Of a DNA stretch of 64,000 bases, positions 34,288 to 53,143 are shown one piece after another (the first letter of the stretch is position 1; each line of letters begins with the position of its first letter). A program made the translations under genes and the position numbers. The DNA is from Gammaproteobacteria bacterium (lineage in GTDB: Bacteria > Pseudomonadota > Gammaproteobacteria > Chromatiales > Chromatiaceae): assembly GCA_030065815.1 (NCBI GenBank), contig JASJCU010000014.1:1-64000 (forward strand). The letters are read 5' to 3'. The notes below the pieces were generated by a model. It saw only the letters and a list, made by a program, of their open reading frames with translations. It made no database searches and was not told the origin of the DNA.

Positions 34288-35460
34288 ATGGCCCGTAACT
34301 TCATCTTCACGTCGGAATCCGTGTCCGAAGGCCACCCGGACAAGATGGCCGACCAGGTCTCCGACGCCATACTCGACGCCATCATCGCCGAGGACCCGCA
34401 CGCGCGCGTCGCCTGCGAGACCCTGTTCAAGACCGGCATGGCCGTGATCGCCGGCGAGATCACGACGACCGCGAAGCCCGACTACGAGCGCATCATCCGC
34501 GACACCATCAACGACATCGGCTACACCGACTCGGCCATGGGCTTCGACGGCGAGACCTGCGCCGTGCTGTCGGCAATCGGCGTGCAGTCGCCCGATATCA
34601 ACCAGGGCGTCGACCGCGCCAAGCCCGAGGATCAGGGCGCCGGTGACCAGGGCCTGATGTTCGGCTACGCGACCAACGAGACCGACGTGCTGATGCCGGC
34701 GGCGATCCAGTACGCGCATCGCCTCGTCGAGCGCCAGGCCGAGGTGCGCAAATCGGGCATCCTGCCGCTGCTGCGACCGGACGCAAAGTCGCAGGTCAGC
34801 CTGCACTACGTAGACGGCAAACCGGTGTCGATCGACGCCGTCGTGCTGTCGACCCAGCACGCCGCCGAGTTCGCCGGCGACACGCTGCACGAAGCGGTCA
34901 TGGACGAGATCATCAAGCCGATCCTCGATCCGACCGGTCTGCTCACCGCCGATACCAAGATCCACATCAACCCGACCGGCAGCTTCGTGATCGGCGGCCC
35001 GATGGGCGACGCCGGCCTGACCGGGCGCAAAATCATCGTCGACACCTACGGCGGCGCGGCCCGTCACGGCGGCGGTGCGTTCTCCGGCAAGGACCCGTCC
35101 AAGGTCGACCGCTCGGCCGCCTACGCCGGTCGCTACGTTGCCAAGAACATCGTTGCCGCCGGCCTCGCCGACAAGTGCGAGATCCAGGTCTCGTACGCGA
35201 TCGGCGTCGCCGAGCCGACGTCGATCATGATCGACACCTTCGGCACCGGCAACGTCACCGACGAGCGCATCACCGAACTGGTCCGCGAGCACTTCGACCT
35301 GCGGCCGTACGGCATCCTGCGCATGCTCGACCTGCTGAATGCCGAGCAGATCAAGTACCGCAAGACCGCGGCCTACGGCCACTTCGGACGCGAGAACGAG
35401 GGTTTCAGCTGGGAAAAGACCGACAAGGCCGACGAGCTGCGCGGCGCCGCCGGACTCTGA
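34288..35460 (+). CDS. metK: S-adenosylmethionine synthetase
   Basis: A 390-residue enzyme that makes S-adenosylmethionine from methionine and ATP. The ATG at 34288 has GAGG about 7 bases before it and [19 protein letters not shown] follows. The DQGLMFGYA motif, [16 protein letters not shown] phosphate loop and the C-terminal [15 protein letters not shown] are present. No SAM riboswitch was recognised in its leader. ahcY and metF, its partners in the activated methyl cycle, lie about 8 kb downstream beyond the sugar-modification genes. Confidence 0.98.
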
Positions 35461-35640: not shown

Positions 35641-36621
35641 ATGACCCAGCAAACGCGCGCAAATCGGATCGGCCCGGCAGGGGTGATGCCCCACGGCCTG
35701 ATGTTCCATCACTTCCACGGCCCGCAGCACAGCAAGAGCCAGGGCTCGATCGATGCCGAGACCTTCGATCGCATTCTCGGGCATTACGCCGCATCGCATG
35801 TCCTGCTGGATGCCGCCGACTACCTCGAGCGCGCGCGCAGCGGCGGCCTCGGGTCGCGCGATGTCTGCATCACGTTCGACGACAGCCTGCTTTGTCAGTA
35901 CGACATCGCCCGCCCGGTGCTCGATCGGCACGGGCTGCGCGCCTTCTGGTTCGTGTACTCCAGCGTGATCAACGGCGGCATCGAGTCGCTCGAGATCCAC
36001 CGGCGTTTCCGCTCCGAACACTTCGCCGATATCGACAGCTTCTACGCCGCGTTCTTCGACACCTTGGGCAAGACGCGCTATGCAGCGATCGTGGATCGCG
36101 CACTGCAGGACTTTCGTGCCGATACCTACCTCGCCGAATTCTCGGTCTACAGCGATGCCGACAAGCGCTTTCGCTACGTGCGCGACCACGTGCTGCAAGC
36201 GCAGGAATTCGGCGAAGTCATGTCGTCGATGATCGCGGCCGCCGGCACCTCGACCGCGGAACTCGCGCGCGGGCTGTGGATGAGCCGCGACGAGCTGCTC
36301 CGACTCGATGCCGAGGGCCACGTGATCGGCCTGCACTCGCACTCGCACCCGACGACGATATCCCGCCTGCCCGCCGAGACGCAGTACCACGAATATGCCG
36401 AGAACCACCGGGTGCTGTCGGAGATACTCGGCAAGCCGCCGTGCACGATGTCGCACCCGTGCAACTCCTACGACGCGCGGACCCTGCAGGCCCTCAAGGC
36501 GTTGGGTATCGATCTCGGCTTCAGGTCGAACATGGCCGGGACCGCCGTCACGGCGCTGGAACACCCGCGTGACGACCACGCCGAGATCGTGCGGCGCATC
36601 GGGCTGTCACGCCAACCGTGA
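35641..36621 (+). CDS. Polysaccharide deacetylase family protein
   Basis: A 326-residue NodB-fold (carbohydrate esterase 4-like) protein. The metal-binding motifs are CITFDDS with the TFDD at residues 78-81 and HSHSHP near 231-236; a later SHPCNSYD probably corresponds to the third conserved motif. There is no signal peptide, so it probably acts on a cytoplasmic or membrane-linked sugar intermediate, for example deacetylating an N-acetyl sugar. The long insert between the first two motifs (about 150 residues) is unusual for plain NodB proteins and resembles those in glycan biosynthesis clusters. It is followed 116 bases later by a FkbM methyltransferase. Confidence 0.85.
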   Translation: MTQQTRANRIGPAGVMPHGLMFHHFHGPQHSKSQGSIDAETFDRILGHYAASHVLLDAADYLERARSGGLGSRDVCITFDDSLLCQYDIARPVLDRHGLRAFWFVYSSVINGGIESLEIHRRFRSEHFADIDSFYAAFFDTLGKTRYAAIVDRALQDFRADTYLAEFSVYSDADKRFRYVRDHVLQAQEFGEVMSSMIAAAGTSTAELARGLWMSRDELLRLDAEGHVIGLHSHSHPTTISRLPAETQYHEYAENHRVLSEILGKPPCTMSHPCNSYDARTLQALKALGIDLGFRSNMAGTAVTALEHPRDDHAEIVRRIGLSRQP

Positions 36622-36737
36622 CCGAGCGCCGGGAGTCGCGGCACCTGCACCGGCCCATTGGCGGTGACACGACTTAAGTTCCTGCGGCGCCTGCCGCTAG
36701 CAAGCTGCGAAGCCAGGGCGACCAAAGGCCAGTTCCC

Positions 36738-37832
36738 ATGCAATCGATCGGAATCTACGGTGCCGGCGGCTACGGCCGCGCGTTCTGTCGGGCGATGAAA
36801 TCGCGCGGCGTAGAACCGGCCTTCTTCATCGACCAATACAGCAACGAGGCCGAGGTGCTCGGCCTGCCCGTCTACCGTATCCCACAGGTACGCGACAAGT
36901 CCGCCGCGATCTACGTCTCGCTGGCGCTACCACCGGTGGCGGCCGATACCGATGATGCGGTGACCGCGGACCTGCGCGCGGCCGGCCTGCACAACGTCCA
37001 CAGGTTCGAAGACGGCCTGCGCGACTTTCCGGCGGCGCTGCACGAGATCATCGCGCTCGGCCAGCTGTGGATGGACACCGATCCGACGACGTCGATCGAT
37101 GACGCCAAGCTCGCCCGCGTCCGCGCCCTGCTGCACGACGACCAGAGCCGCCGGCTGCTCGACCGCATCGTCGCCTTCCGCCGCGAGCCCAGCTATGCGA
37201 GCTATGTTGCCCCGGACGGCCAGACCGAATACTTCCCCGACGACGTCGACGTGTTCTCCAGCCTCGACACGATCCGTTTCGTCGACTGCGGCGCCTACAC
37301 CGGCGACACCGTCGCGGCACTCGCACAGCGCCTGCGATCGCTCGGCAAGACCCTGGATTACGCGATCTCCTTCGAGCCTGACCCGGCCAACCATGCGACG
37401 CTGGTCGACGAGCTCGCCCGCCAAAAGGCCGACCTGCCCGGGTCACGGCTGATGGCGCTGCCGCTGGGCGTGTGGTCGCATGACACGGTGCTCAGGTTCA
37501 ACGTCGGCAACGGCAGTTCGAGTGGTGTTGCGGGGTCCACCGGTGACGCGACAACCGCCGACGTGCCGGTCGTCGCACTCGACGGCATGCTGGCGAGCGC
37601 CGAACCGAACTTCATCAAGATGGACATCGAAGGTGCCGAGCGCGAGGCGCTACGCGGCGCGCAGCAGATCATCCAACGCTGCCGGCCCAATCTCGCGGTC
37701 TGCGTCTACCACCGGCCGGACGACCTCTGGGAGATCCCGCTGGCGATCCACGCGCTGCACCCGGGCTATCGCATGCACCTGCGGGTGCACTCGCACATGG
37801 GACTAAGCACGGTACTGTACTGCACCACGTAG
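36738..37832 (+). CDS. FkbM family methyltransferase with N-terminal nucleotide-binding-like domain
   Basis: A 364-residue protein in two parts. Residues 1 to about 90 begin GIYGAGGYGRAF, like the Rossmann-type start of PglD-like or WbbJ-associated sugar enzymes. From about 183 on is a FkbM SAM-dependent methyltransferase domain: RFVDCGAYTGDTVAAL (motif I), ISFEPDPANHATL, then FIKMDIEGAEREALRGA near 296. FkbM enzymes usually O-methylate sugars or polyketides. Its last 30 bases overlap those of the convergent acyl-CoA ligase gene. Sugar O-methylation in a surface glycan pathway is inferred from the neighbours. Confidence 0.88.
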   Translation: MQSIGIYGAGGYGRAFCRAMKSRGVEPAFFIDQYSNEAEVLGLPVYRIPQVRDKSAAIYVSLALPPVAADTDDAVTADLRAAGLHNVHRFEDGLRDFPAALHEIIALGQLWMDTDPTTSIDDAKLARVRALLHDDQSRRLLDRIVAFRREPSYASYVAPDGQTEYFPDDVDVFSSLDTIRFVDCGAYTGDTVAALAQRLRSLGKTLDYAISFEPDPANHATLVDELARQKADLPGSRLMALPLGVWSHDTVLRFNVGNGSSSGVAGSTGDATTADVPVVALDGMLASAEPNFIKMDIEGAEREALRGAQQIIQRCRPNLAVCVYHRPDDLWEIPLAIHALHPGYRMHLRVHSHMGLSTVLYCTT

Positions 37833-39365
37833 GCGCCGCAGCTCCGCACTGGCGTCATATCCGCGAAAACGCTCGCGCAAGGCCTGGCGACGGATCTTGC
37901 CCAGGTCGGTACGTGGCATGCGGTCGACGAACTCATAGGCCAGCGGGACCTGGTAGTCGGCCAGCCGGCGGACACAGTGCGCCTGCAGCCGGCGGCGTTC
38001 GGGCGGGCAGTCGTCGCCGGCGACCACGCACGCGAGCACGGCCTCGCCGAAATAGCTGTCCGGCACGCCGATCACCGCGCAGTCGCGCACGCCGGGTGCC
38101 GCACGGAGTACGGCCTCGACATCTTCGGGGTAGACATTGGTACCGCCGACGATGATGACGTCTTTCTTGCGCCCCGCGAGATACAGGTAACCGTCGGCAT
38201 CGAGGTAACCGAGGTCGCCGGTCGCGAAGTAGCCGTCGTGCAGGCTCGCTGCGGTCAACTGCGGTTGCCGGAAGTAGCCGGCGAATGCGGTCCGCGTGCG
38301 GCAGTAGATCTCTCCGATCTCGCCGCTGGGTAACGTGCGACCGGTGGCATCGACGATCTTCAGATCCACGTAGTCCAGCGCGCGCCCGACGCTGCCGCCG
38401 TGGCGGTCGTCGGTGCGCGAGTCGATGTCGGTCACGATGCCGACCTCCGAGGCGCCGTAGCACTCGTGGAAGTCACAGCCGAGTTGCGCGACGCAGCGTG
38501 CCATCAGCGCCGGCGGCAGCAGCGCCGACGACGACACCAGCGTACGCAGGCTCGGCAGCGTACCGTTCTGCGCGTCGAGGGCGTCCAGGATCGCCGGCAG
38601 CTGTGACGACACGACGATCGAGAAGGTCACGCGGTGGCGGTCGACGGCATCGACATAGGCCTGAGCGGTGAACGACGTCATGATCACCGCCTGCGCGCCA
38701 ATCAGCAGCGGCAGCAATGCCAGCCGGAAACCGAGCGAGTGGTACATCGGTGTTGCCGTGACGATGACGTCATCGGCGTCCAGGCGGTAGAGCTCGCTGG
38801 CACCGTCGATTGCGCGGTGGACCTTGCCCGCCTGGGTCAGCACGATCGGCTTTGGCTCGCCGGTCGAGCCGGATGTCATCGTCAGCAGAAACACGCTGTC
38901 AGGATCGACGGTGCTGTTGGCGAGGATGCCGTGCGGTGCCGCCGCGACGATGTCGGCGTGGTTGCGGCATTCGCTCAGCGCGCTGCCGACGACCAGGATG
39001 TTGGCCGCCGGCAGCGGCGTGGCCTCTAGCAGGCGTCGCGCCGCCGCACTGCCGGCGACAGCGAAATCGGCATCGACGGCCCCGGCCGCCGCCGCGAGGC
39101 CCGGCTCGGCCAGCGACGGGCTGACCGGCGCCACTGCGGCGCCGATCGCCGCTGTCGCGAGCACGGTCTCGACGAACGCCAGGCCGTTGTCGAGCACGAC
39201 CAGGATGCGGCTGTCGGCGGTGACGCCCATGTCGTGCAACAGGCTGCACAGGCGCTCGGCGCGGTCGGCCAGCTCCGCGTAGCTGACCTCGCTGTCAGCG
39301 AGACGGACCGCGATCTTGTCGGGCGTGTTCGCGAGATGCCGGCGGAAGCGCTCGACGATCGTCAT
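37803..39365 (-). CDS. AMP-dependent acyl-CoA / acyl-ACP synthetase
   Basis: A 520-residue adenylate-forming enzyme (ANL superfamily). Core motifs: TSGSTGEPKPIVLT P-loop, YGASEVG, ATGDLGYLDADG, GRKKDVIIVGG hinge, and the C-terminal catalytic Lys in RTDLGKIRRQ. The ATG at 39365 overlaps the stop of the GNAT gene upstream (ATGA). Given the adjacent acyl carrier protein it probably activates a carboxylic acid and loads it onto that ACP or CoA, to supply an acyl group for the GNAT enzyme. The acid cannot be read from sequence. Confidence 0.88.
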   Translation of the reverse strand: MTIVERFRRHLANTPDKIAVRLADSEVSYAELADRAERLCSLLHDMGVTADSRILVVLDNGLAFVETVLATAAIGAAVAPVSPSLAEPGLAAAAGAVDADFAVAGSAAARRLLEATPLPAANILVVGSALSECRNHADIVAAAPHGILANSTVDPDSVFLLTMTSGSTGEPKPIVLTQAGKVHRAIDGASELYRLDADDVIVTATPMYHSLGFRLALLPLLIGAQAVIMTSFTAQAYVDAVDRHRVTFSIVVSSQLPAILDALDAQNGTLPSLRTLVSSSALLPPALMARCVAQLGCDFHECYGASEVGIVTDIDSRTDDRHGGSVGRALDYVDLKIVDATGRTLPSGEIGEIYCRTRTAFAGYFRQPQLTAASLHDGYFATGDLGYLDADGYLYLAGRKKDVIIVGGTNVYPEDVEAVLRAAPGVRDCAVIGVPDSYFGEAVLACVVAGDDCPPERRRLQAHCVRRLADYQVPLAYEFVDRMPRTDLGKIRRQALRERFRGYDASAELRRLRGAVQYRA

Positions 39366-40396
39366 GAGGCCAGGCTCAACGCGTCGCTGCGCAACACGTT
39401 CGGCCGGTCCTGATCGCCGTCGGCACGGCACAGCCGCGGGCGTATGCCCGGGTGCGTGTCGGCGACGGCGTAGACGCGCACGTTCTTCCTGACAAAGGGT
39501 TCGAAGTAGTTCGGCACCACGACGTCCTGCCGATCGAAGTCGAGGCGTCGCCATCCCGCACGCTGCATCAGCACCGGATCGAATCCACTGCAGACGAAAT
39601 CGGCGTATTCGAAACCCTCGGCGACGACGACCTGGAACAGGCCGCGCACGACATCCGCCATGTGCCGGGGATCGCCGTAGAAATCGACGACACGCAGGGC
39701 CTTGTGGCCATCGTGGCCGACCTCGCGGCAGACCACGACGCACAGCGTCTCGCCGTGGTCGACCAGGCGAAACACCCGATATGCGTAGATCGGGTGCGCG
39801 AAGAAGCGCCGCCGCAGATAGGCGAAATCCTTCTGCGGCCCGCCACCGCTGTCATCGAGGAACGGGAAATCGGCGAGCACGTCGGCGCTCGCGACCGGCT
39901 CCAGGTCCGCCCCGGGTTCCACAGCCAGCGTCGGCGCGGCCGTCGCGTCGGCGATGCGGCAGATTCGCTGCTCGCGCACGTCGGGATTGGCGGCGACATA
40001 GTGATCCATCTCGATCCACTGCATCCCCAACACACGATAGATCGGCCGCGTCTGCAGGCCGGCGCCTGGCGCGGCGAAATAGCGGTGCGCGACCCGGTCG
40101 ACGACGAAGCGGCGCAACTGCAGGCCCAACATCGGCGACCCGCGGCCATCGACGACCTTCCACAACGACCCGGCGAGATCGGGGCAATCCAGGCTGCTGT
40201 ACCTCATGAAACCGAAGATGCCGATGATGTCGCTGCCGTCGCAGGCCAACGCGAGATTCAGGCGATCGCCGTCCTGGAAATCGAAACGGAACAGGTCCTC
40301 GCTGACCGAGAGTATGTGACCGGCACGCCAGTGCGCGTCCATGAACGCCATCAGCGGCCGCAGGTCGGCGAGCCGGGCGAAGCGGATCTCAGGCAT
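39362..40396 (-). CDS. GNAT-like N-acyltransferase
   Basis: A 344-residue protein that I place with GNAT-fold acyltransferases of glycan and lipid clusters. The N terminus (IRFARLADLRPLMAFMDAHWRAGH) is a typical GNAT first strand and helix, followed by LALACDGSDIIGIFGFM. A second GNAT-like half seems to lie in the C-terminal part (LVDHGETLCVVVCREVGHDGHKALRVVDFYGD). No signal or membrane segment. It overlaps the ACP gene by 8 bases and the ligase gene by 4, so all three are translated together; transfer of an ACP-bound acyl group to an amino sugar is the likely job. The exact substrate is unknown. Confidence 0.7.
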   Translation of the reverse strand: MPEIRFARLADLRPLMAFMDAHWRAGHILSVSEDLFRFDFQDGDRLNLALACDGSDIIGIFGFMRYSSLDCPDLAGSLWKVVDGRGSPMLGLQLRRFVVDRVAHRYFAAPGAGLQTRPIYRVLGMQWIEMDHYVAANPDVREQRICRIADATAAPTLAVEPGADLEPVASADVLADFPFLDDSGGGPQKDFAYLRRRFFAHPIYAYRVFRLVDHGETLCVVVCREVGHDGHKALRVVDFYGDPRHMADVVRGLFQVVVAEGFEYADFVCSGFDPVLMQRAGWRRLDFDRQDVVVPNYFEPFVRKNVRVYAVADTHPGIRPRLCRADGDQDRPNVLRSDALSLAS

Positions 40397-40646
40397 CGCC
40401 GTTCGCCGACTTGCGTGCGATCGAACTCGCCAGGCTGGTCACGGTGTAAAGCGCCGGGTCGATCAGCTCCTGGTCACTGAAACGGACGCCGAACTCCTCT
40501 TCGAGCAGCACGATCATGTTGAACACACCGAGCGAATCGATGTAGCCGGTCTCGAACATGTCTGCCTGGCAATCGATCTCTTCGGTGCTGACGCCGCGGC
40601 GGTCGGCGATGTGGCGAACGATGAACTCGGCGGCCGCGCCCGTCAT
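40389..40646 (-). CDS. Acyl carrier protein
   Basis: An 85-residue acidic acyl carrier protein. The phosphopantetheine site is the Ser of GYIDSLGVFNM near residue 38, followed by the helix MIVLLEEEFGVRFSDQEL normal in ACPs. The ATG at 40646 overlaps the dehydrogenase stop by 4 bases. It is not the housekeeping fatty-acid AcpP (no fab genes around, and the site is DSLG in a divergent context) but a dedicated carrier for the neighbouring ligase and acyltransferase. Confidence 0.9.
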   Translation of the reverse strand: MTGAAAEFIVRHIADRRGVSTEEIDCQADMFETGYIDSLGVFNMIVLLEEEFGVRFSDQELIDPALYTVTSLASSIARKSANGDA

Positions 40647-41830
40647 GACTTCGCCCGCCCGACCCAGCGTTCGTGCTGCGGCGTGATGTGGACGCGCTCC
40701 CAGCGCCGCCGCGAACTCGACAGACGGGCCGCATGGAACAGCGCCAGGCCGTTGGTCGCGTGCCGCATGCCATAGACGTGGGGGTTGCTGTGCCGGCCAT
40801 TCTCGCGCCATTCGAGTAATGCATCGGCGATGTCGGTGTAGAGGTTGGCGAACGCCTCGATAAAGCCCGACGGGTGCCCGACCTTCATGCGGTTGTAGCG
40901 CGCGTCGCCGGCGACCAGCGCCTGCCCGCCGCGGTCGATCGACAGGCGTGTACCGTCGATCATGGCCAGCTGCAGCGTCTCCGGCTCGAGCTGGAACCAT
41001 TCGGCGCTGCCGAGTTCGCCGCAGACGCGGATACGCAGGCCGTTGCGCATGCCGACGGCGGTCTTGCTCATCCAGAAGCTGGCCGTCATGCCGCTCGGAT
41101 ACTCGAGCCACATCGACACGTTGTCGACGATATGCCGGTACTGCGAGTAGGTGTTGAACTCGGCGTTGACCTGCTCCGCCTCCTCGTCGCACAGAAACCC
41201 GGCGAGATGATGCAGATGCACGCCGAGATCGAGGCAGATCGTCGGAATGAAATCGTCATGCAGGCGCCAGCCCTGCGGCGGCGCCGCCTTGCCGGCGATC
41301 GCCGGCGGGCGCACGAAACCCTCCTGCGGCATCTCGATATGTAACTGCTGGATCTTGCCGAACTGGCCATCGGCGATGCGCCGCCGCAGTTCGCGTACCA
41401 TCGGATAGGCGCTGTAGTTGAATGTGACGGCGACGAAATTGCGCGCCGGATCGCTCATCGCCAGCAGTGTCCGCGCATCGTTGAGGTTCGACACCAGCGC
41501 CTTCTCGCAGATCACCGGGATGCCGGCCTTCAACAAGGCCTGCAACTCCTCGTAGTGATTCGGTGTCGGCGTCAGCACGACGACCGCATCGAGCCGCGAG
41601 CGTTCGGCGACGATCAGATCGCGCCACGACGCGTAGACGCGGTCGGGCGCAACCCGCCAGGCGTCGCCGGTCTGCCGGTTGACGTCGTCGCTGCGACTGA
41701 ACACGCCGGCCTGCAGTGACCACCGTCCGTCCATCTGACTCGCCGCGAAGTGCGTCTGGCCGACCGCGGATGACAACCCGCCACCGATGAATCCCAGTGC
41801 CAGGTTCCGTGGAGCGCCGTTGCTGGTCAT
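40643..41830 (-). CDS. Gfo/Idh/MocA family oxidoreductase
   Basis: A 395-residue NAD(P)-dependent dehydrogenase of the Gfo/Idh/MocA family, commonly acting on sugars or nucleotide sugars. The Rossmann strand reads ALGFIGGGLSS, TPNHYEELQALLKAG is present, and the usual EKP motif is EKAL (in VICEKALVSN). The ATG at 41830 is chosen because GAGGGAAG lies upstream. The catalytic His region (CLDLGVHLHHLAG) is visible. It is the first gene of the four-gene minus-strand set dehydrogenase-ACP-GNAT-ligase. Confidence 0.87.
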   Translation of the reverse strand: MTSNGAPRNLALGFIGGGLSSAVGQTHFAASQMDGRWSLQAGVFSRSDDVNRQTGDAWRVAPDRVYASWRDLIVAERSRLDAVVVLTPTPNHYEELQALLKAGIPVICEKALVSNLNDARTLLAMSDPARNFVAVTFNYSAYPMVRELRRRIADGQFGKIQQLHIEMPQEGFVRPPAIAGKAAPPQGWRLHDDFIPTICLDLGVHLHHLAGFLCDEEAEQVNAEFNTYSQYRHIVDNVSMWLEYPSGMTASFWMSKTAVGMRNGLRIRVCGELGSAEWFQLEPETLQLAMIDGTRLSIDRGGQALVAGDARYNRMKVGHPSGFIEAFANLYTDIADALLEWRENGRHSNPHVYGMRHATNGLALFHAARLSSSRRRWERVHITPQHERWVGRAKS

Positions 41831-42009: not shown

Positions 42010-42786
42010 TCAATCAGGGGCTTTGACCGTTTCCCGGTAGGCATGCCAGGTTGCATGACCGATCAGCGGCAGGATTACGATGAACCCAAGATAGAGAGTG
42101 CTGAAACCGATCAGCGACAGCGCGACGATCAGAGTCGCCCACTCGAACATCACAGTCTTGTTGCTTAGCACCGCGTTGACGCTTGTCAATGCGCTGGTTA
42201 TCGCGTCGGTACCGCGATCGAGCATCATCGGCAGCGACACGACGCTGGACGCGAACACGATAGCCGCAAAGACCGCACCCACGGCGCTGCCAACGGCAAA
42301 GAACTGCAGCCAGCTCACCGCATCCATCTCTTCGTGAGACGGAAAGAAGATATGCACCATCGACGCGGCACGGGCCCAGATCAACAGCACGATCAACATC
42401 ACCAGCGCAAACAGCAATTCGTTACGCAGATGATTGCGGCTCTCTTTGAAACAGATGCCAAGCTGCGGGGGCCTTCCCTGTTCGAGTTGGCGGCTAATCG
42501 AATACAGGCCGAACGCCAACACCGGACCCGCGAGAATGAACGCAACAATGAGCGTGAACAGCGCCAGGGTATTGCCGTCGCCCCAGGCCAGCCACGTGAC
42601 CAGGTACAGGAACAGGACCAGACCGATGCCGTAGGCAAGGCTCTGACCACGCGCGCGCTTCAGATCATTCCAGCCGAGCCGTAGCCAGCGCATCGGCGCA
42701 TCCAACGGCAGTGTGTTCGACGGGTAGAACAGCGGTTCGATCTTTTCTGCCCCGTCATCGGGACGCACGACACCGGGTTCCGGCAT
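42010..42786 (-). CDS. DUF2189 family membrane protein
   Basis: A 258-residue integral membrane protein with about six hydrophobic segments, starting after a soluble N-terminal stretch containing WLRLGWNDLKRARGQSLAYGI, the signature start of DUF2189 proteins. Function is unknown; these proteins are often linked to cytochrome c oxidase or respiratory loci. Here it stands alone. The ATG at 42786 has a near-perfect AGGAGG 5 bases upstream, deciding the start. Its codon usage is less GC-rich than its neighbours. It is read divergently from the ahcY leader. Confidence 0.85.
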   Translation of the reverse strand: MPEPGVVRPDDGAEKIEPLFYPSNTLPLDAPMRWLRLGWNDLKRARGQSLAYGIGLVLFLYLVTWLAWGDGNTLALFTLIVAFILAGPVLAFGLYSISRQLEQGRPPQLGICFKESRNHLRNELLFALVMLIVLLIWARAASMVHIFFPSHEEMDAVSWLQFFAVGSAVGAVFAAIVFASSVVSLPMMLDRGTDAITSALTSVNAVLSNKTVMFEWATLIVALSLIGFSTLYLGFIVILPLIGHATWHAYRETVKAPD

Positions 42787-43075
42787 ACCTTCCTCCTGCG
42801 GATGCTTGGGTTGTCCCGTTTCCCGGGATCTCTGCCGACGCTGGCGCGCTCGGTGTGTCTGCCGCACACCCTGCTACGCCTTCGATACGCGGCCTTGTCA
42901 TTATTAACCTGGCCAATATTAAGGCCAATCTTCGCGAACTTGGCTAGGGAATTCCCTAATTCAACGGGCCCAAACGGGGGATTTGCACGCCCAACTGTGT
43001 ACAATCGGCGCCCTGTCGCCGGCCCGCCGCTCGAGATCGACCCAGCGGCGGCGATAACCGGGACGTCACAACTCC

Positions 43076-43147
43076 GCGTCGAGGGGCGCTGCAACCTGTT
43101 CATCAGGCCAGGCTCGACGCTGGATACAGCGAACGCAACGGCGCTCA
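43076..43147 (+). promoter_or_regulatory. SAH riboswitch aptamer
   Basis: Matches the S-adenosylhomocysteine riboswitch consensus. P1 is formed by GCGTCGAG (43076-43083) with CTCGACGC (43113-43120). Inside are the conserved GAGGGGCGCTGCAAC (43081-43095) and GGCCAGGCTCGA; a small hairpin CCTG/CAGG (43095-43098 with 43104-43107) caps the middle; and the pseudoknot strand AACGGCGCTCAC follows (GGGCGC at about 43084-43089 with GCGCTC at 43141-43146). SAH riboswitches turn on SAH-recycling genes when SAH is high, and here the gene behind it is ahcY. A TACAAT -10-like hexamer at 43000-43005 fits a start about 65 bases upstream. Confidence 0.93.
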
Positions 43148-43157
43148 CTCACGTGTT

Positions 43158-43176: not shown

Positions 43177-44586
43177 ATGAGTGAGTTCACCGATTTCAAG
43201 GTCGCCGACCTCGCACTGGCCGACTGGGGCCGCAAAGAGATACGGATCGCCGAGACCGAGATGCCGGGTCTGATGGCCTTGCGCGAGAAGTACGGCAAAT
43301 CCAAGCCCCTCAGCGGCGCACGCATCACCGGCTCGCTGCATATGACCATCCAGACCGCGGTCCTGATCGAGACCCTCGTCGAACTCGGCGCGCAGGTACG
43401 CTGGTGCTCGTGCAACATCTTCTCGACCCAGGACCACGCGGCGGCCGCGGTCGCGGCCGCGGGTATCCCGGTCTACGCCTGGAAGGGCGAGACACTCGAG
43501 GAGTACTGGTGGTGTACCGAGCAGGTCCTGAACTGGCCCGACGGCAACGGCTGTCCGAACATGATCCTCGACGACGGCGGTGACGCAACGCTGCTGGTCC
43601 ACAAGGGCGTCGAGTACTCCGATGCCGGCGCGGTACCGAAACCGGCGGCCGACGACCCGGACGAGTGGAAGGTGATCCTCGGCGTGCTCGAGCGCAGCCT
43701 CGGCGAAGACCCGAAGCGCTACCACAAGATGGCCGAATCGATCCGCGGCGTCACCGAGGAGACCACGACCGGTGTGCACCGCCTGTACGAGATGTTCAAC
43801 GACGGCAAGCTGCTGTTCCCGGGCATGAACGTCAACGACTCGGTCACCAAGTCCAAGTTCGACAACCTGTACGGTTGTCGCGAATCACTGGTCGACGGCA
43901 TCAAGCGCGCGACCGACGTCATGATCGCCGGCAAGATCGCCGTCGTGTGTGGTTACGGCGACGTCGGCAAGGGATCGGCGCAGTCGCTGCGCGGGCTCGG
44001 CGCGACGATCTGGGTCACCGAGGTCGACCCGATCTGCGCACTGCAGGCGGCGATGGAGGGCTTCCGCGTCGTGACGATGGACGACGCGGCCCCCGTCGCC
44101 GACATCTTCGTCACCGCCACAGGCAACAAGATGATCATCAGCCACGATCACATGGCGGCGATGAAGGATCAGGCGATCGTCTGCAACATCGGTCATTTCG
44201 ACAACGAGATCGACATCGCCGGGGTGCAGAAGTACCGCTGGGAGAACATCAAGCCGCAGGTCGACCACATCGTCTTCCCCGACGGCAAACGCGTCATCAT
44301 GCTGGCCGAGGGGCGTCTGGTGAACCTCGGTTGTGCGACCGGCCATCCGAGTTTCGTGATGTCGAACTCGTTCACCAACCAGGTGCTGGCGCAGATGGAG
44401 ATCTTCAACAAGCCCGACGACTACCCGGTCGGCGTCCACATCCTGCCCAAGCACCTCGACGAGGAGGTCGCGCGCCTGCACCTCGACAAGATCGGTGCGA
44501 AGCTGACGATGTTGACCCAGGAGCAGGCCGACTACATCGGCGTGCCAGTCGGCGGGCCGTACAAGCCCGATCATTATCGCTACTGA
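43177..44586 (+). CDS. ahcY: S-adenosylhomocysteine hydrolase
   Basis: A 469-residue NAD-dependent enzyme that splits S-adenosylhomocysteine into homocysteine and adenosine, relieving product inhibition of methyltransferases. Seen: [36 protein letters not shown], the NAD-binding [15 protein letters not shown], and the C-terminal KPDHYRY. The length fits the proteobacterial form with the roughly 40-residue insert. It is under an SAH riboswitch and precedes metF. Confidence 0.98.
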
Positions 44587-46494: not shown

Positions 46495-46950
46495 TCAGGC
46501 CGCGGCGAGCTGACCCTGCAGAAATTCGAGGTCGGGTACGATCAGGTTCTCGCCGGCGATCGACAACGTCATGCGGATCGGCTTAGCGCCGGCCTGTTCG
46601 CCGCTCGCGACCTGGATCGACTGCTGACTGACGCGCATCAGCCGCGGAATGCCCTGTGCCACCAATCCGATAAGCGGCCACGTGGCACGACCACCGATCG
46701 CATAGCAAACGGCGATACGCTGGCGGATTCCGGCACTCAGTTCAGCGCGCCCGATCAGACGCTCGAAATCCAGCACCGGGATGTCGCGCTGGTGCCAGCT
46801 CACCGTGCCCTGCAGCCAACCGGGCTGGTCGTCGCGATGATCCGGCGTGCGGTAGCCGATCACCTCGGCGACCGCGGTGCTCGGCAACAGCAGGCGCCCC
46901 GAGCGCATGGGGATCAGCATGCAGCGGACATCGGCGCCGGCCCCGATCAC
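46495..46950 (-). CDS. CheW-like coupling protein (ChpC-type)
   Basis: A 151-residue CheW-domain protein: RLLLPSTAVAEVIGYR, GWLQGTVSWHQRDIPVLDFERL and the YAIGG strand are typical. In Pseudomonas the type IV pilus system has a second CheW-like protein, ChpC, after chpA and chpB, and this gene has that position. The GTG at 46950 overlaps the ChpA stop (GTGA), deciding the start; an ATG ten codons in is the alternative. It probably couples additional receptors to ChpA. Confidence 0.85.
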   Translation of the reverse strand: MIGAGADVRCMLIPMRSGRLLLPSTAVAEVIGYRTPDHRDDQPGWLQGTVSWHQRDIPVLDFERLIGRAELSAGIRQRIAVCYAIGGRATWPLIGLVAQGIPRLMRVSQQSIQVASGEQAGAKPIRMTLSIAGENLIVPDLEFLQGQLAAA

Positions 46951-49900
46951 AGCGCCGCGTCCGCGAGTACGGTGTAGATATTCTCAAGCAACTCGGCCTC
47001 CTGGTACGGTTTTCCGAGGTAGCGCTTCACGCCGAGTTCGATCGCACGCTCGCGGTGCTTGTCGCCGGTCCGTGACGTGATCATGATGATCGGGATGTCA
47101 CTGAGTTCGCCGGTGGTGCGCATGTGTCGTGCGAGCTCGAAGCCATCCATGCGCGGCATCTCGATATCGAGCAGCATCACGTCCGGGTGATGCTCCTGCA
47201 GCTGGGTCACCGCGTCGACCCCGTCCTTGGCCGTGATCACGTGCATGTTGTGGCGTTCCAGCAGACGGCTGGTCACCTTGCGCACCGTGATCGAGTCGTC
47301 GACGACCATCACCGAGACGCCCTTGGTGGCCGGCTCCGCGGCCGCCTCGTCGAACTCCACCTGCTGCGTGCTGTCGATGCGCACGAGACTGTTGGTGTCG
47401 AGGATCAGCGCGATCTGGCCGTCGGCGAGAATTGTGCCGCCGGTGAACCAGCGCACACCGCTGAGCTGTGCGCCGATCGACTTGACGACGATCTGGCGAT
47501 TGCCGAGCAGCGCGTCGACCTGGATAGCCACGCGGTGTTCGCCGGAGCGCACGAGCAACAACGGCAGCCAGCGGGTACCCTCCGAGATGTTCGGCGCCGC
47601 CACGCCGAGCATGTTGCCCAGGTAGCGCACCGTGTACTCACGGCGCGCGCTCGTGAACTTGTCCTGCTGACCGGCATATATCGCCCGCAACTCGTCGATG
47701 TCGATGCGCACGACGCCGTCCATGCTGCTGTGCGGCACCGCGTAATAGTCGTCGCCGACGCTGACCAGCAGTGCATCGGTGATCGCCAACGTGAACGGCA
47801 GGCGGATCGTGAACCTGGTGCCCCGTCCGGGATCGGAATCGATCTCCAGCGAACCGCCGAGCTGCTTGATCTCGGTCAGCACCACGTCCATGCCGACGCC
47901 ACGCCCCGACACCTGCGACAGCTCCTGCGCGGTCGAAAAGCCGGGTTGCAGGATCAACTGGTAGAGGTCGTCGTCATCGAGCGCCACGTTGCCCTCGATC
48001 AGGCCACGCTCAACGGCCTTGTCACGGATGCGCGAGCGATCGAGGCCGCTGCCATCGTCGGACAAGGTCAGCACGACGTCGGTCCCCTCGCGCCTCAATT
48101 GCAGCGTGATCAGGCCGTGCGGCTGCTTGCCGTTGGCCTTGCGCGTCTCGGCGTCCTCGATGCCATGCGAGACGGCGTTGCGCAGCAGGTGTTCGAGCGG
48201 CCCCATCATGCGCTCAAGGATCGCGCGGTCCATGTCCTCGCCACCGCCGATGACCTCGAGGTCGGCCTGTTTGCCGACACTGTGACTGGTCTGACGGACG
48301 ACGCGCTCGAGCCGCGGGACACGGCTGGCGAAGCGCACCATGCGCGTGCGCAGCAGGCCGTCCTGCAGGTCGGTCGTCACGCGCGCCTGCTGCAGCAGCA
48401 GGGTGTCGGTGTCGCGGCTCAGATCGTTCAGCGAGCGACCGAGGTTCGACAGGTCCTCGACGGTCTCGGACAAGGCGCGCGACAGCTGCTGCATCGTCGA
48501 GTAGCGATCGAGTTCCAGAGGATCGAAGTCGGCCCGCGACTCGGTATCGCGCTCGTGACGCGACAGGATCTGTGCCTCGGTCTCGAGCTCGAGACCGCGC
48601 AGCTGGCTGCGAAGCCGGTCGATGGTCTGCTGCAGCTCGGTCAGGTTGAATGCGATGCTGCTGTTCTGCTGCTCGATGCGCGCACGGTAGATGCTGACTT
48701 CACCGGCGTTGTTGACCATCTGGTCGAGCGCGTCCGAGGCCACCCTGACGCGCTCGCTGCCGGTCGCCGGCGCCGGCTGCTCTTCGGGCAACGGCTTGCG
48801 CGGCACGAAGCCGCTGGCCTCGTCCGGCAGCAGCTCGCCGCCCGGGAATTGGATCACGGTCGTCTCGGCGCTAGTCCCGGCGTCGGCGGCAGGCTGTTCG
48901 GCCTCCGGCACCAGCAGCAGGCTGGAGTCGTCGAGCAGCTCGGAATCGGTCATCAGCTGCGAGTCTGTCATCAGCTGCGAGTCGGTCAGCAACCCGGAGG
49001 CGAGGTCGTCGCCCTCTGCCGCCGCGGCCTCGTCGGCGAGCGCAGCGACAGGCGCGACGTCGACATCGGCCGCTTCCTCGCCGCCATCGTCGCCGGCCGC
49101 CGCAGGCTCGGCATCGGCACCCACCACGACCGCGTCCTCGGGTTCGGCGACCGGTGCTGGCGTATCGGCCAGTTCGGCGCTGTCGCTGTCTGCGTCCGCA
49201 GCCGGCAACGACGCCGGTTCCAGCGAATCGACAAAGCTCGACTCGGCCTCGAACGTGACCTCGTCGGGCGCGACATCGTCCCAGTCGCGCCCGCGGCCCG
49301 CCGCTTCGAGGCGTTGCACCATGGCCGGGTGCTCGTCCGGCACACCGCCACCGATCAGCTGTTCGATGTCCTGCGCGAGCACGTCGGTGGCATGGCGGAC
49401 CAGCTGCTTGAGGCGCCGATCGCCGTCGATACGCCCCTCGACGACGCTCTCGAATGCCGATTCCAGTGCATGGCTGAGGTCACCGACGCCGCTGACGCCG
49501 GCCAGGCGCGCGCCGCCCTTCATCGTGTGCAGGTAACGCTGCAGCTTGGCGACCGGCTCGTTGCCGTGTGCGCCGGCCTCCCAGTCAACCAGCTCGCCCT
49601 CGAGAGACTCGAGCAGCTCCTTGGCCTCGTCGAGGAAGACCTCGAGCAGGTCCGGATCGAAGGCGTCCTGCCCGCCGCCCCCGCCACTCGCGGTCGCTTC
49701 GGGCGGCGGCTCGGTCAACGCGGCCGTCGCAGCGTGGATCTCGTCGACCAGCGGCTCCCAGGCCGGTGCGTCCGCATGCGCGTCGTCGAACACCGTCGCC
49801 AGACTCGTGAACATGTTGTGACAGCGGTTCAACAGGTCGAGCGTGCGGCCGTCGGTCGTGTTCTGTTGGTACTGCAGCGTCTCGGTATAGGTCTCCAGCG

Positions 49901-52900
49901 CCGCGGCCAGGTCGGCCATCGCGTCGGCGCCAGCGGTCCGCGCGCTGCCGCGCAGCGTGTGCATCGCGCGGCGCACACCGACCTCCATGACACAACCGCC
50001 CGGGGTTGCGGCGCAGCGCTGGACGAATTCGTCGAGCACGCCGAGGTGGCCCTGCGCCTCGCCGAGGAACACCGCGTTGAGGCTGGTGTCGGTCGACGAC
50101 GCGCCAACGGCATCGAGTTCGGAGAACTCCGAGTCCTGGACCTCGCTCGCGGTCAGGATCGACTCGTCGCCGTCGGCGGCGGCCGCACGCCTGTCGCCGA
50201 CGACCTCGATGTGCAGCGTATCGTCGCCGGGCATGTCCAGGCCTTCCAGCGACAACGGCGCCGGCGACGGGTCGAACACCGGTTCGCCCAGACCGTCGTC
50301 GATCTCGGGCATCGCGAAGCCGTCATCGGGCAGCATCAGCGATTCGCCGGGCTCCGGCATCTCGAACGCCTCGTCGGCGCCTGCCATCGCCGCGGCCAGC
50401 GGCACGGCCTCGGGCGCCGCTGCAACCGCGGGCTCGGGTTCCGCTGGCATGTCGGTGTCGGCTTCGGCTTCCGGCTCTGGCGAGGGCACGCCCTCGAGCG
50501 CGGGTGGCGCCACGGGCCCGGTTTCGCCATCGGGTGCCGCGGCGACCCCGGATTCGGTGTCGGGCGCACCTTCAATTGTCGGTTCAGGCACGGGCTCGGC
50601 GGCAGGTTCGGCAGGCGCCGCGGGCGCCTCCGACAACGCTTCCGGTGCCGGCTCCGCGACCGGTTCGACTGTGCTCGGCGGCGCGCTGGGGGCCGCTGCC
50701 GCGTCGCCCGACGCGAGCGCGAATGCGCGGTCGTGAAGCGCCGACACGTCGCTCTGGCTGCCTCCCAGATTGGCGCTCTCCGTGACCAGCGTCGGCAATA
50801 CGTCGCCGGCCTCACGCAGCAACGACAACACCTCGGGTGCCGCCGCGACAGTGCCGTCGATGACCCGGTTGAGCAGGTTCTCGATCGACCACGCGAATTC
50901 GCCGATGTTGCTGGCACCGACGATCCGGCCGCTGCCCTTGAGCGTATGGAACGACCGCCGCATCGTCTGCAGCGATTCCTTGTCTTCGAGGTTGTTGAGC
51001 CACGCCGGCAGACAGCGCTGGATGACCTCGAGCTCCTCCTGCGCCTCTTCGGCGAATATCTCGAGGATCTCCGAATCGACATCGCTGGCCTGGTCGTCCG
51101 CGGCGTCGACGGCCTCCGCCGTGGGCTCGACAGGCTCGGCGGGCTCCTCGGCGGCCTGCGCCGTGTTAACCGCATCGGCCGATGCAGCCGGCTCGGCGGC
51201 GTCGGCAACGGCGAGCGCGGCGGGCGCCGCTTCGGCGGCCCCGGTGGACTCGGTCGCTTGCGCCGCCGCGGCGGCCGTGTCGACCGCTGCCTGTTGATCG
51301 GGCACGCCCGTGAGTTCGGTCGCGGTCGCCGCCTGGTCCGGCCGGTCCGCCGTTTCGGCGGCCAGGTCGGTATCGGGTGCCGCCACAGCCGCGGTCGCGG
51401 TCGCGGCTGTCTCGGCGGTCTCCGCGGCCGCCGCTTGTTCGGTGTCGCGCAGACCGAGTACGCGCAGCGCGCGATCGGCGTAGGCCAGCAGCTGTTCGCG
51501 ATCCGCGCCAGGCTCGACCGCGGTATGCATGTACAGCTCGGCGCTGGTGATGACGTCGGCGAGCGCGTCGCGCTGCGCCGTGTCCGGGACCGCCGCGTCT
51601 CCGGCGGCGAGCCGGGCGACGAACGGTTTGAGATCGTGCAGCAGGCGCCCGGCCTCCGGCATCTGCAGCATCGCCATCACACCGGCGACCATGTGCAGGC
51701 GATTCGGGACCTCGGCGAGCCGCTCGCGGTCCAGTGGCTTGGCGAGGAATTCGAGGATCTCGTCCTTGGTCTTGGCGATCTCGACCAGCGCCTCGTCGAT
51801 CGCGGCGTGCTGATGCTGCCGCATCTCGCCGTCCGACAACATCTGCGACGTCGTACTCTCGACCTCGTCGTCGGCCAACGCGTCCTCCGGTGAAGCCAGG
51901 CTGGACAGCGACGACTCGACGAACAGCAACTCGCTGGCAAGCGCCATCAGGCGTTCATCGGCGGGCGGCTCGCTGGCGTCGCGCGCCGCGTCGAGTTCGG
52001 CGCAGTAGTCCTTCAGGCGGGTGCGCAGCTCGCCGCGCCCGACCATGCCCAGCGTGTCGCCGATCCGCTGGATCGGCGCAGCCAGTGCGGTCAGGCGATC
52101 GAGCTGGTTGCGGTCGCCACGGATGTAGAGGTCGAGCTGGTCCTTGACATCGCGCAGGTCCTGGCCGAGCGCCTCGCCGACGGCCGCGAACAGCTCGCGA
52201 TCGGGCGCACCCAGCGACTCCACGCCGGCCTGGGCCTGGTCGGGGAAGCTGTTGACCAGGTCCGCCGACTGCTGCACCGATACGACGGCCGGGTCACGCG
52301 AGTTGGAGCGGGCGATGTAGTAGAGGAAGTTCTTAAGCAGCTCGACCGGGAAATCGAGCATCGCCGCCTCTTCGCCCTGGTCGATGACGCGTTTGAATTC
52401 CTGGTCGAGCTTGCCGAACAGCGGCTTGGCCGCGAGCGCCGGGGCCTCCGAGTCGTCGGCGAGCGCGATCGCCAGCGCCTCCGCGGCATCGAGCAGGCGG
52501 CGCATCCGCGCGGTCCCGGCGGCGCTGTTGAGCACGTCGAGCACATCCCGGATCAGGCCGAGCGACGCGTTTACGTGCTGATCGCGAATCCAGTTCAGCA
52601 GGCCGCGATGGAACTGGCTGCGGTGCTGCTGGATCAGGCGCGGCAGATCGCGATTGCCGGATCCGGGACGCACCGTCTCGGCGGCGATCAGGGTGTTGAG
52701 CTTCGGCGCGAACAGCGACGTTTCCGAGACCAGCGGTGCGTCGCGCGCGGCGCGCAGGTCGTTCATCAGCGGCAGCAGTACCAGCGGCACGTCGGCCCCG
52801 CCGGCCTCGACCTTCTCGAGGTACGCCGGCAGCTGGACCATGCCGAGCATCAACGCCTCGGCAGCGGGATCCTTGCGCTTGACCGCGCCGGCGTGCATCG

Positions 52901-53126
52901 CCCGCGCAAGCCGCTCCATCTCATCGGCCAGCATTGCGCCGCCGAATACCTGGACCATCTCGAGTGCGCCGTGCACGTGATGCAGCAGATTGGCGCAGCT
53001 GTCGAGACGGTCGTGCTGTCCGTCGGCGAAATCCTCGAGCGCGCCGCGCGCCTCGCGCAGGCTCTGGTCGAGCTCACCGCGGATCCAGCGTAACCCGCTC
53101 CGGTCCTGACGCTGTTCTGGCAGCAT
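46947..53126 (-). CDS. chpA: Pil-Chp hybrid chemotaxis histidine kinase ChpA
   Basis: A 2059-residue CheA-type kinase controlling type IV pilus motility. The N-terminal 450 residues resemble the FimL-like region. Three canonical HPt domains have H727 (HTLKGSGR), H1056 (HTLRGSAR) and H1200 (HTMKGGAR); two degenerate HPt-like sites lie earlier (LLHHVHGALEM near 50 and HMVAGVMAML near 470). Long Ala/Pro/Glu-rich linkers separate them. Then come the P3 dimerisation helix pair, the HATPase (HLLRNAVSHGIED), a CheW domain and a C-terminal REC with D1987 (LLDIEMPRMDG). Pseudomonas ChpA has six HPt plus Ser and Thr phosphotransfer sites; this one has fewer. It is 17 bases after pilJ. Confidence 0.95.
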   Translation of the reverse strand: MLPEQRQDRSGLRWIRGELDQSLREARGALEDFADGQHDRLDSCANLLHHVHGALEMVQVFGGAMLADEMERLARAMHAGAVKRKDPAAEALMLGMVQLPAYLEKVEAGGADVPLVLLPLMNDLRAARDAPLVSETSLFAPKLNTLIAAETVRPGSGNRDLPRLIQQHRSQFHRGLLNWIRDQHVNASLGLIRDVLDVLNSAAGTARMRRLLDAAEALAIALADDSEAPALAAKPLFGKLDQEFKRVIDQGEEAAMLDFPVELLKNFLYYIARSNSRDPAVVSVQQSADLVNSFPDQAQAGVESLGAPDRELFAAVGEALGQDLRDVKDQLDLYIRGDRNQLDRLTALAAPIQRIGDTLGMVGRGELRTRLKDYCAELDAARDASEPPADERLMALASELLFVESSLSSLASPEDALADDEVESTTSQMLSDGEMRQHQHAAIDEALVEIAKTKDEILEFLAKPLDRERLAEVPNRLHMVAGVMAMLQMPEAGRLLHDLKPFVARLAAGDAAVPDTAQRDALADVITSAELYMHTAVEPGADREQLLAYADRALRVLGLRDTEQAAAAETAETAATATAAVAAPDTDLAAETADRPDQAATATELTGVPDQQAAVDTAAAAAQATESTGAAEAAPAALAVADAAEPAASADAVNTAQAAEEPAEPVEPTAEAVDAADDQASDVDSEILEIFAEEAQEELEVIQRCLPAWLNNLEDKESLQTMRRSFHTLKGSGRIVGASNIGEFAWSIENLLNRVIDGTVAAAPEVLSLLREAGDVLPTLVTESANLGGSQSDVSALHDRAFALASGDAAAAPSAPPSTVEPVAEPAPEALSEAPAAPAEPAAEPVPEPTIEGAPDTESGVAAAPDGETGPVAPPALEGVPSPEPEAEADTDMPAEPEPAVAAAPEAVPLAAAMAGADEAFEMPEPGESLMLPDDGFAMPEIDDGLGEPVFDPSPAPLSLEGLDMPGDDTLHIEVVGDRRAAAADGDESILTASEVQDSEFSELDAVGASSTDTSLNAVFLGEAQGHLGVLDEFVQRCAATPGGCVMEVGVRRAMHTLRGSARTAGADAMADLAAALETYTETLQYQQNTTDGRTLDLLNRCHNMFTSLATVFDDAHADAPAWEPLVDEIHAATAALTEPPPEATASGGGGGQDAFDPDLLEVFLDEAKELLESLEGELVDWEAGAHGNEPVAKLQRYLHTMKGGARLAGVSGVGDLSHALESAFESVVEGRIDGDRRLKQLVRHATDVLAQDIEQLIGGGVPDEHPAMVQRLEAAGRGRDWDDVAPDEVTFEAESSFVDSLEPASLPAADADSDSAELADTPAPVAEPEDAVVVGADAEPAAAGDDGGEEAADVDVAPVAALADEAAAAEGDDLASGLLTDSQLMTDSQLMTDSELLDDSSLLLVPEAEQPAADAGTSAETTVIQFPGGELLPDEASGFVPRKPLPEEQPAPATGSERVRVASDALDQMVNNAGEVSIYRARIEQQNSSIAFNLTELQQTIDRLRSQLRGLELETEAQILSRHERDTESRADFDPLELDRYSTMQQLSRALSETVEDLSNLGRSLNDLSRDTDTLLLQQARVTTDLQDGLLRTRMVRFASRVPRLERVVRQTSHSVGKQADLEVIGGGEDMDRAILERMMGPLEHLLRNAVSHGIEDAETRKANGKQPHGLITLQLRREGTDVVLTLSDDGSGLDRSRIRDKAVERGLIEGNVALDDDDLYQLILQPGFSTAQELSQVSGRGVGMDVVLTEIKQLGGSLEIDSDPGRGTRFTIRLPFTLAITDALLVSVGDDYYAVPHSSMDGVVRIDIDELRAIYAGQQDKFTSARREYTVRYLGNMLGVAAPNISEGTRWLPLLLVRSGEHRVAIQVDALLGNRQIVVKSIGAQLSGVRWFTGGTILADGQIALILDTNSLVRIDSTQQVEFDEAAAEPATKGVSVMVVDDSITVRKVTSRLLERHNMHVITAKDGVDAVTQLQEHHPDVMLLDIEMPRMDGFELARHMRTTGELSDIPIIMITSRTGDKHRERAIELGVKRYLGKPYQEAELLENIYTVLADAAL

Positions 53127-53143
53127 GCTGACGACGTCCCTGT

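Follow-up and report, generated by a model that had tools for sequence, protein, structure and literature searches.

Gene content of the island

We analysed a window of 64,000 nucleotides (positions 1-64,000, forward strand, of contig JASJCU010000014.1, assembly GCA_030065815.1) from a Gammaproteobacteria bacterium of the Chromatiaceae (Chromatiales). It carries, at 35641-41830, a cassette of six genes that had been predicted from the DNA to act on an N-acylated sugar and that we take, on balance, to tailor a sugar of flagellin. All six open reading frames were found and are intact, as the original prediction had it. Two lie on the plus strand: a polysaccharide deacetylase of the NodB/CE4 type (35641..36621; PF01522, 7e-17), with a helical insertion between its metal motifs, and an FkbM-family methyltransferase (36738..37832; PF05050, 5e-19), whose N-terminal nucleotide-binding domain is PglD-like (PF17836, 0.0016, below cut-off). 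The other four lie on the minus strand and encode an AMP-forming, acid-activating acyl ligase (37803..39365; PF00501, 1.7e-68; PF13193, 5e-16), a double-GNAT N-acyltransferase of 344 residues (39362..40396), recognised by alignment and predicted structure, an acyl carrier protein (ACP; 40389..40646; PF00550, 1e-8) with an intact DSL phosphopantetheine site, and a Gfo/Idh/MocA oxidoreductase (40643..41830; PF22725, 7e-20; PF01408, 1e-12) of a subfamily that travels with ACP and GNAT genes. The minus-strand genes overlap by 4 (Gfo/ACP), 8 (ACP/GNAT) and 4 bases (GNAT/ligase), within the 4-8 bases claimed earlier, and the fkbM and ligase genes converge with an overlap of 30 bases. None of the six encodes a glycosyltransferase, flippase or polymerase, again as expected. 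The numbers of sigma-70 promoters and terminators were no different from those in shuffled sequences.

At the sequence level, the catalytic residues are retained in all five enzymes other than the GNAT protein. In the deacetylase, D80, D81, H232 and H236, which make up the metal-binding Asp, two His and catalytic Asp, are invariant in 14 relatives; its structural model (predicted local distance difference test score, pLDDT, 89) has as nearest folds PplD, PgaB and IcaB, all polysaccharide de-N-acetylases. The phosphopantetheine serine of the ACP (Ser38) is invariant across nine sequences, as are the TSGSTG-PK P-loop and the C-terminal catalytic Lys490 of the ligase in four orthologues; the solved structures nearest to the ligase are fatty-acyl- and feruloyl-CoA ligases. 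The Gfo/Idh protein, 54-78% identical to its counterparts in four other ACP-GNAT loci, has an invariant NAD motif (GGG), E109-K110 (EK), and D201 and H205 (D-x3-H). In FkbM the S-adenosylmethionine (SAM) motif DCGAYTGDT is kept, with one conservative change in relatives.

The double-GNAT protein

Neither Pfam nor NCBIfam has a family that the 344-residue protein matches at E<=0.1, and a sequence-profile search of solved structures gave nothing informative. Only 2 of its 22 relatives matched PF00583, and weakly (best 0.00076). The structure predicted from these 22 relatives (mean pLDDT 90; predicted template modelling score, pTM, 0.90) consists of two GNAT halves. Since most of the model can be aligned with tandem-GNAT proteins (Z 14.6-16.5 over 250-296 residues, 6-14% identity), the description of the window protein as a two-part GNAT, a guess of the original prediction that sequence alone could not have confirmed, holds at the level of the predicted fold. 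The structural matches were Eis, Eis2, acetyltransferases of Enterococcus and Bacillus, and N-myristoyltransferases. With the Eis-type tandem acetyltransferases and the N-myristoyltransferases the likeness consists of two GNAT halves per chain (Z 15-16.5); identity is limited to the 6-14% given above, and the common fold says nothing on function. In the alignment of the present family the C-terminal half is strongly conserved and ends in the signature VPNYFEPF...(K/R)ADGDQDRPN, of which DGDQDRPN serves to define this family.

The metK-ahcY site is a hotspot

The cassette is inserted between conserved neighbours: on its left metK (34291..35460, plus strand), whose orthologues in same-genus genomes are 87-92% identical, and on its right a gene for a DUF2189 membrane protein (42010..42777, minus strand; PF09955, 4e-26) followed by ahcY (43177..44586, plus strand; orthologues 82-89% identical). 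Of eight same-genus genomes, four have an island at this site. In the other four (G001, G003, G006 and G007) the site is empty, with DUF2189 alone between metK and ahcY, which are then about 1.2-1.5 kb apart; the gap reaches 7.7 kb in the genome of the window (G000), 8.2 kb in G002 and 17.3 kb in G008. In G004 the borders fall on two separate contigs, with an island gene adjoining each.

The content of the island varies from genome to genome. The congener G002 (locus L009) has the identical six genes in identical order, and the DNA identity between the two genomes is 69% in the island against 74-84% in the flanks. In G007 a cassette lies at a different place and comprises deacetylase, a formyltransferase-type gene (so called for the start and size it has in common with the G008 gene), ligase, GNAT, ACP and Gfo genes. 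In G008 the site (L031, 3885-17385) holds a deacetylase gene beside metK, then genes for a formyltransferase, a thiamine pyrophosphate (TPP) enzyme, NeuB, two ketoacyl synthases III, a ketoreductase and two double-GNAT proteins and, further along, ligase, FabA-like and LuxC genes. Because these three genomes show the same, relocated or different content, the metK-ahcY site is a hotspot with modular content exchange. The original prediction had proposed searching other genomes for the six-gene set. The full set was found in G002 and partial sets recur; the complete block was seen nowhere else, other relatives retaining some parts and exchanging others. The same gene order in G002, together with the partial sets elsewhere, indicates that the gene set exceeds a chance association.

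The position between metK and ahcY, and the presence of the SAM-dependent FkbM methyltransferase, could be taken as a functional link to the SAM cycle. We rejected this reading, which has next to no probability: the four empty sites keep metK-DUF2189-ahcY intact without the cassette, the G007 cassette sits elsewhere, and the G008 site holds different genes. Foreign composition was likewise rejected as proof of transfer, since the G+C content of the island (66.7%) equals that of its surroundings and its third-position G+C (0.84-0.86) is only slightly below that of metK and ahcY (0.90-0.92).

Two further observations concern the bordering genes. An S-adenosylhomocysteine (SAH) riboswitch (43075-43153, plus strand; RF01057, 64.8 bits) directly precedes ahcY, which places a control element of the SAM cycle at the right border of the island. 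On another contig of the genome of the window (C159:2566-5103) there is a further, divergent metK (59% identical) beside a second ahcY (73-75%); this pair may have come by horizontal transfer, be a specialised copy or be contamination.

GNAT relatives lie among nonulosonate and deacetylase genes

In one scan of a genome collection, relatives of the double-GNAT protein were found in Proteobacteria, Clostridia, Bacteroidales, a cyanobacterium, SAR324, Phycisphaeraceae and Lentisphaerae. Of 28 GNAT loci, 11 contain NeuB, usually with NeuC/LegG, a cytidine monophosphate (CMP)-sugar synthetase, a CBS-type nucleotidyltransferase and a DegT aminotransferase. A polysaccharide deacetylase gene lies within 3 kb of the GNAT gene in 15 of the 28, in several phyla, which is far above a crude chance estimate. 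ACP or ligase genes occur in many of these loci; the ligase often belongs to another subfamily, and FabA-like, ketoreductase, LuxE and LuxC genes accompany it. The window's Gfo/Idh subfamily was met again in L009, L029, L030 and L010, each time beside ACP and GNAT genes, and in L010 a CMP-sugar synthetase gene directly follows the GNAT gene. In a class-wide search of a sample of 369 genomes, all six genomes with a full-length-type match (E below 1e-15) have NeuB, compared to 148 of 369 overall (p 0.004); the distance between NeuB and the GNAT gene is 2-17 kb in four of these six. Nine weaker matches (54-106 positions, E 1e-11 to 1e-4) were left out of the family.

These neighbourhoods bear on whether the cassette could be a freestanding small-molecule or lipid pathway, for instance for an acylated amino-sugar metabolite, with no relation to flagella. 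The set contains no glycosyltransferase or transporter, and ACPs, ligases, methyltransferases and dehydrogenases are also known from secondary metabolism. We nevertheless consider such a pathway very improbable: close relatives of the GNAT, Gfo, ACP and ligase genes adjoin the CMP-sugar synthetase of L010, and relatives of the ligase and FkbM genes adjoin that of the glycosyltransferase Maf.

Link to Maf and flagellin

The connection to flagellin glycosylation comes from several genomes. In G024, of a related genus, the ligase gene begins within a Maf gene and is followed by FkbM (L072). In G386 (L100) the order is NeuC-NeuB-CBS/nucleoside triphosphate (NTP) transferase, Maf, deacetylase, GNAT. 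In Butyrivibrio (L020) Maf and flagellin flank the deacetylase-GNAT pair, in the order Maf, glycosyltransferase, deacetylase, GNAT, flagellin. In Sulfurivirga caldicuralii (L027) a GNAT remnant lies between nonulosonate genes and Maf. Targeted searches, on which all statements about gene content in the genome of the window are based, found on its contig C142 genes for Maf, a LegB-like dehydratase, NeuC/LegG, CMP-sugar synthetase, NeuB and a CBS/NTP transferase together with a flagellin, and another flagellin at the edge of C41. In a set of 56 relatives, 6 of the 7 genomes with a large Maf (about 835 residues) have the GNAT gene and 0 of the 49 others do, an association inflated by shared descent.

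A candidate sigma-28 (FliA)-like promoter, TTAAGTTC-N11-GCCGCTAG, is located at 36674..36700 on the plus strand, 37 bases before fkbM. It matches the consensus weakly (12/16), and under the scoring used sigma-28 sites were not in excess in the window (five versus three expected). Both boxes and their spacing are identical in G002, where the spacer sequence differs; because both boxes recur there, this is the only such site that we kept, and its conservation makes it a candidate and a lead.

Taken together, the link of the module to flagellin is well supported. Several observations weigh against the reading of the module proposed below. Common descent confounds the co-occurrence of GNAT and Maf, and G003 has a large Maf and no GNAT gene. 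The flagellar genes are unlinked to the island in the genome of the window, and the FliA-like site scores no better than chance matches elsewhere in the window. No LegC-type aminotransferase gene lies beside NeuB in G000, G002 and G008, in contrast to G003 and G007, which bears on the choice of the amine that would be acylated. Some GNAT loci have no ACP or ligase gene nearby, so that the donor need not be acyl-ACP and may be acyl-CoA. Finally, the GNAT family is not restricted to flagellin, since no Maf is seen in the stretch at L012, L018 and L025, which may serve O-antigen or capsule.

This last point also speaks for an alternative in which the module tailors a nonulosonate or an amino sugar of lipopolysaccharide (LPS), O-antigen or capsule rather than of flagellin. 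Some GNAT relatives are indeed found at polysaccharide loci (L018, which has a Wzz gene, L012 and L025), and Acinetobacter capsules are known to hold nonulosonates with unusual N-acyl groups (PMC9676051). Against such a target, the partner genes adjoin Maf in the window's own family (G024), NeuB shares a contig with Maf and flagellin in the window's own genome, and GNAT tracks the large Maf. We therefore regard a surface polysaccharide as an unlikely target for this cassette.

The nonulosonate loci themselves show some further features. In G000, G002 and G008 (L064 on C142, L065 and L067) they comprise genes for a LegB-type dehydratase, NeuC/LegG and NeuB, and in G000 a FimV-domain gene lies between those for the dehydratase and the epimerase. 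The sugar of these three genomes may not be a canonical 5,7-diamino nonulosonate. A DegT-type gene on C104 was considered as LegC and rejected, being about 24% identical to the aminotransferases of nonulosonate loci and lying near a nucleotide-sugar dehydratase-like gene. The remnant in S. caldicuralii DSM 17737 (L027:9923-10234) is C-terminal only, roughly 100 residues, in its nonulosonate-Maf locus; a metagenome-assembled genome labelled as the same species has a full GNAT gene (L010:5842-6885) with ligase, Gfo and ACP genes, an apparent case of decay or replacement in place. In G024 the GNAT (L030:1774-2783) and ligase (L072:2674-4530) genes are each split into two pieces, either by assembly error or by decay.

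A proposed acyl-swap mechanism

On this basis, we propose with moderate confidence that the island is a tailoring, or acyl-swap, module for a nonulosonic acid (a sialic-acid-like sugar) used in flagellin glycosylation. Core enzymes encoded elsewhere in the genome (LegB-type dehydratase, NeuC/LegG, NeuB and CMP-sugar synthetase) would produce an N-acetylated nonulosonate, from which the island deacetylase would strip an N-acetyl group and expose an amine, a role suggested by its nearest folds. The ligase, judging from its neighbourhood, would activate a carboxylic acid and load it onto the ACP, and the double-GNAT protein would transfer it from there to the freed amine. FkbM would O-methylate the sugar or the acyl chain, Gfo/Idh might oxidise or reduce one carbon of either, and Maf would attach the finished sugar to flagellin. 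The formyltransferase gene that overlaps the deacetylase gene in G008, and the gene of the same start and size that does likewise in G007, fit an amine that is freed by the deacetylase and then re-acylated. The original prediction, a tailoring set for an N-acyl sugar that serves another locus and joins a NodB-type deacetylase and a two-half GNAT to an ACP and a ligase of its own, is supported to this extent, and the likeliest target, the flagellin glycan, was already among those it listed.

The acyl group could instead be added early. In that case the GNAT protein would act on a nucleotide-linked 4-amino sugar, replacing LegH/PseH in the manner of the lgaHI and psaGH routes to 7-N-(3-hydroxybutanoyl) nonulosonates in Acinetobacter, and the deacetylase would have a separate job. 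An exchanged acyltransferase step has a precedent there (PMC9676051), and a non-canonical route is suggested by the genome of the window, where NeuB has no LegC-type gene beside it. Two features of the GNAT loci fit an acyl swap better, namely the deacetylase-GNAT neighbourhood in 15 of 28 and the presence of a separate NeuD-type acetyltransferase in L013, L020, L022, L026 and L027. Early acylation thus seems to us a minor, rather improbable alternative to the acyl swap.

More tentatively, and rating it as possible rather than probable, we suggest that the double GNATs with the DGDQDRPN signature form an undescribed, widespread family of nonulosonate N-acyltransferases, which together with a partner deacetylase would swap N-acetyl for a custom acyl group after the sugar is built. 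The logic of Nod-factor synthesis would in this way have been re-invented for flagellar sugars, as an exchangeable hotspot cassette. Unusual N-acyl and O-methyl groups have been seen on flagellar nonulosonates by mass spectrometry, but few of the responsible enzymes are known. The deacetylase-GNAT pair, found across several phyla, offers an enzymatic route that can be tested, together with a signature by which to recognise acyltransferases of a family unnamed in Pfam and NCBIfam, and the metK-ahcY hotspot suggests how such sugars may diversify between close species, remote from the flagellar genes.

Comparison with known systems

In Nod-factor synthesis the deacetylase NodB frees an amine, a dedicated ACP (NodF) carries the acyl group and the acyltransferase NodA attaches it. 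The present set resembles NodB-NodA-NodF in this logic of deacetylase, ACP and acyltransferase; we compare the logic alone and claim no membership. It differs in its presumed nonulosonate acceptor, in its predicted tandem GNAT, and in the free acid that would be activated by an AMP ligase.

In Aeromonas, the islands for flagellin glycosylation contain ACP, 3-oxoacyl-ACP reductase and AMP-dependent synthetase genes in group II, deacetylases in group I, and Gfo/Idh and GNAT genes in group III (PMC7874193); those of Enterobacteriaceae are listed with FkbM, ACP, CoA ligase, FabG, LuxE and LuxC (PMC4875605). A lipid-like part of the flagellin glycan has been suggested for both (PMC7874193, PMC4875605), and surveys of flagellin islands go no further than noting the ACP and ligase genes. 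As in our cassette, ACP, AMP-dependent or CoA ligase, deacetylase, Gfo/Idh, GNAT and FkbM-type genes there accompany genes for nonulosonate or other sugars. There, however, they adjoin pse and flagellar genes, are split over island groups and often occur with LuxE, LuxC and FabG, whereas the present six genes form one separate block between metK and ahcY and include a double GNAT that lacks a family model. Of the "undescribed" pathway of the original prediction, the individual enzyme types do not stand as new, since each has been reported in Aeromonas or Enterobacteriaceae islands (PMC7874193, PMC4875605); the same set was not met in the literature found. What is known, then, is the enzyme types and the class of target; the separate cassette and its site and this combination of genes are new, and the acyltransferase family has no name in the two libraries searched. 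The recurrent partnership of deacetylase and GNAT is not stressed in the published passages compared.

Two other known systems come close. The lgaABCHIFG and psaABCGHF modules of Acinetobacter baumannii make legionaminic and pseudaminic acid with a 7-N-(3-hydroxybutanoyl) group through the exchange of two core-pathway genes (PMC9676051). They share with our proposal a nonulosonate with a non-acetyl N-acyl group, but the exchange takes place inside the core pathway, the product serves the capsule and no deacetylase is named in the module. The flagellins of Shewanella oneidensis (sfmABCDE) carry a NeuB-dependent, pseudaminic-like sugar of 274 Da and an O-methylated outer part of 236-264 Da (PMC3765264). 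The NeuB and TPP-enzyme genes of that cluster also occur in the island of G008, which is reminiscent of it; ACP, AMP ligase, deacetylase and double-GNAT genes are unreported in the sfm operon (PMC3765264). A literature search for an N-acyl flagellin sugar in Treponema denticola found nothing in the collection of papers searched.

Other features of the window

Type IV pilus chemotaxis genes lie at 46947-55198 on the minus strand, encoding a ChpA-like protein of 2059 residues with Hpt, CheW and response-regulator domains and a PilJ-type receptor; they are near metF and an RNA methyltransferase gene, and appear ordinary. At 11079-16019 (plus strand) the window encodes a very large hybrid histidine kinase, a single chain of 1646 residues that combines CHASE8, HAMP, three response-regulator domains, Hpt, PAS, GGDEF and EAL.

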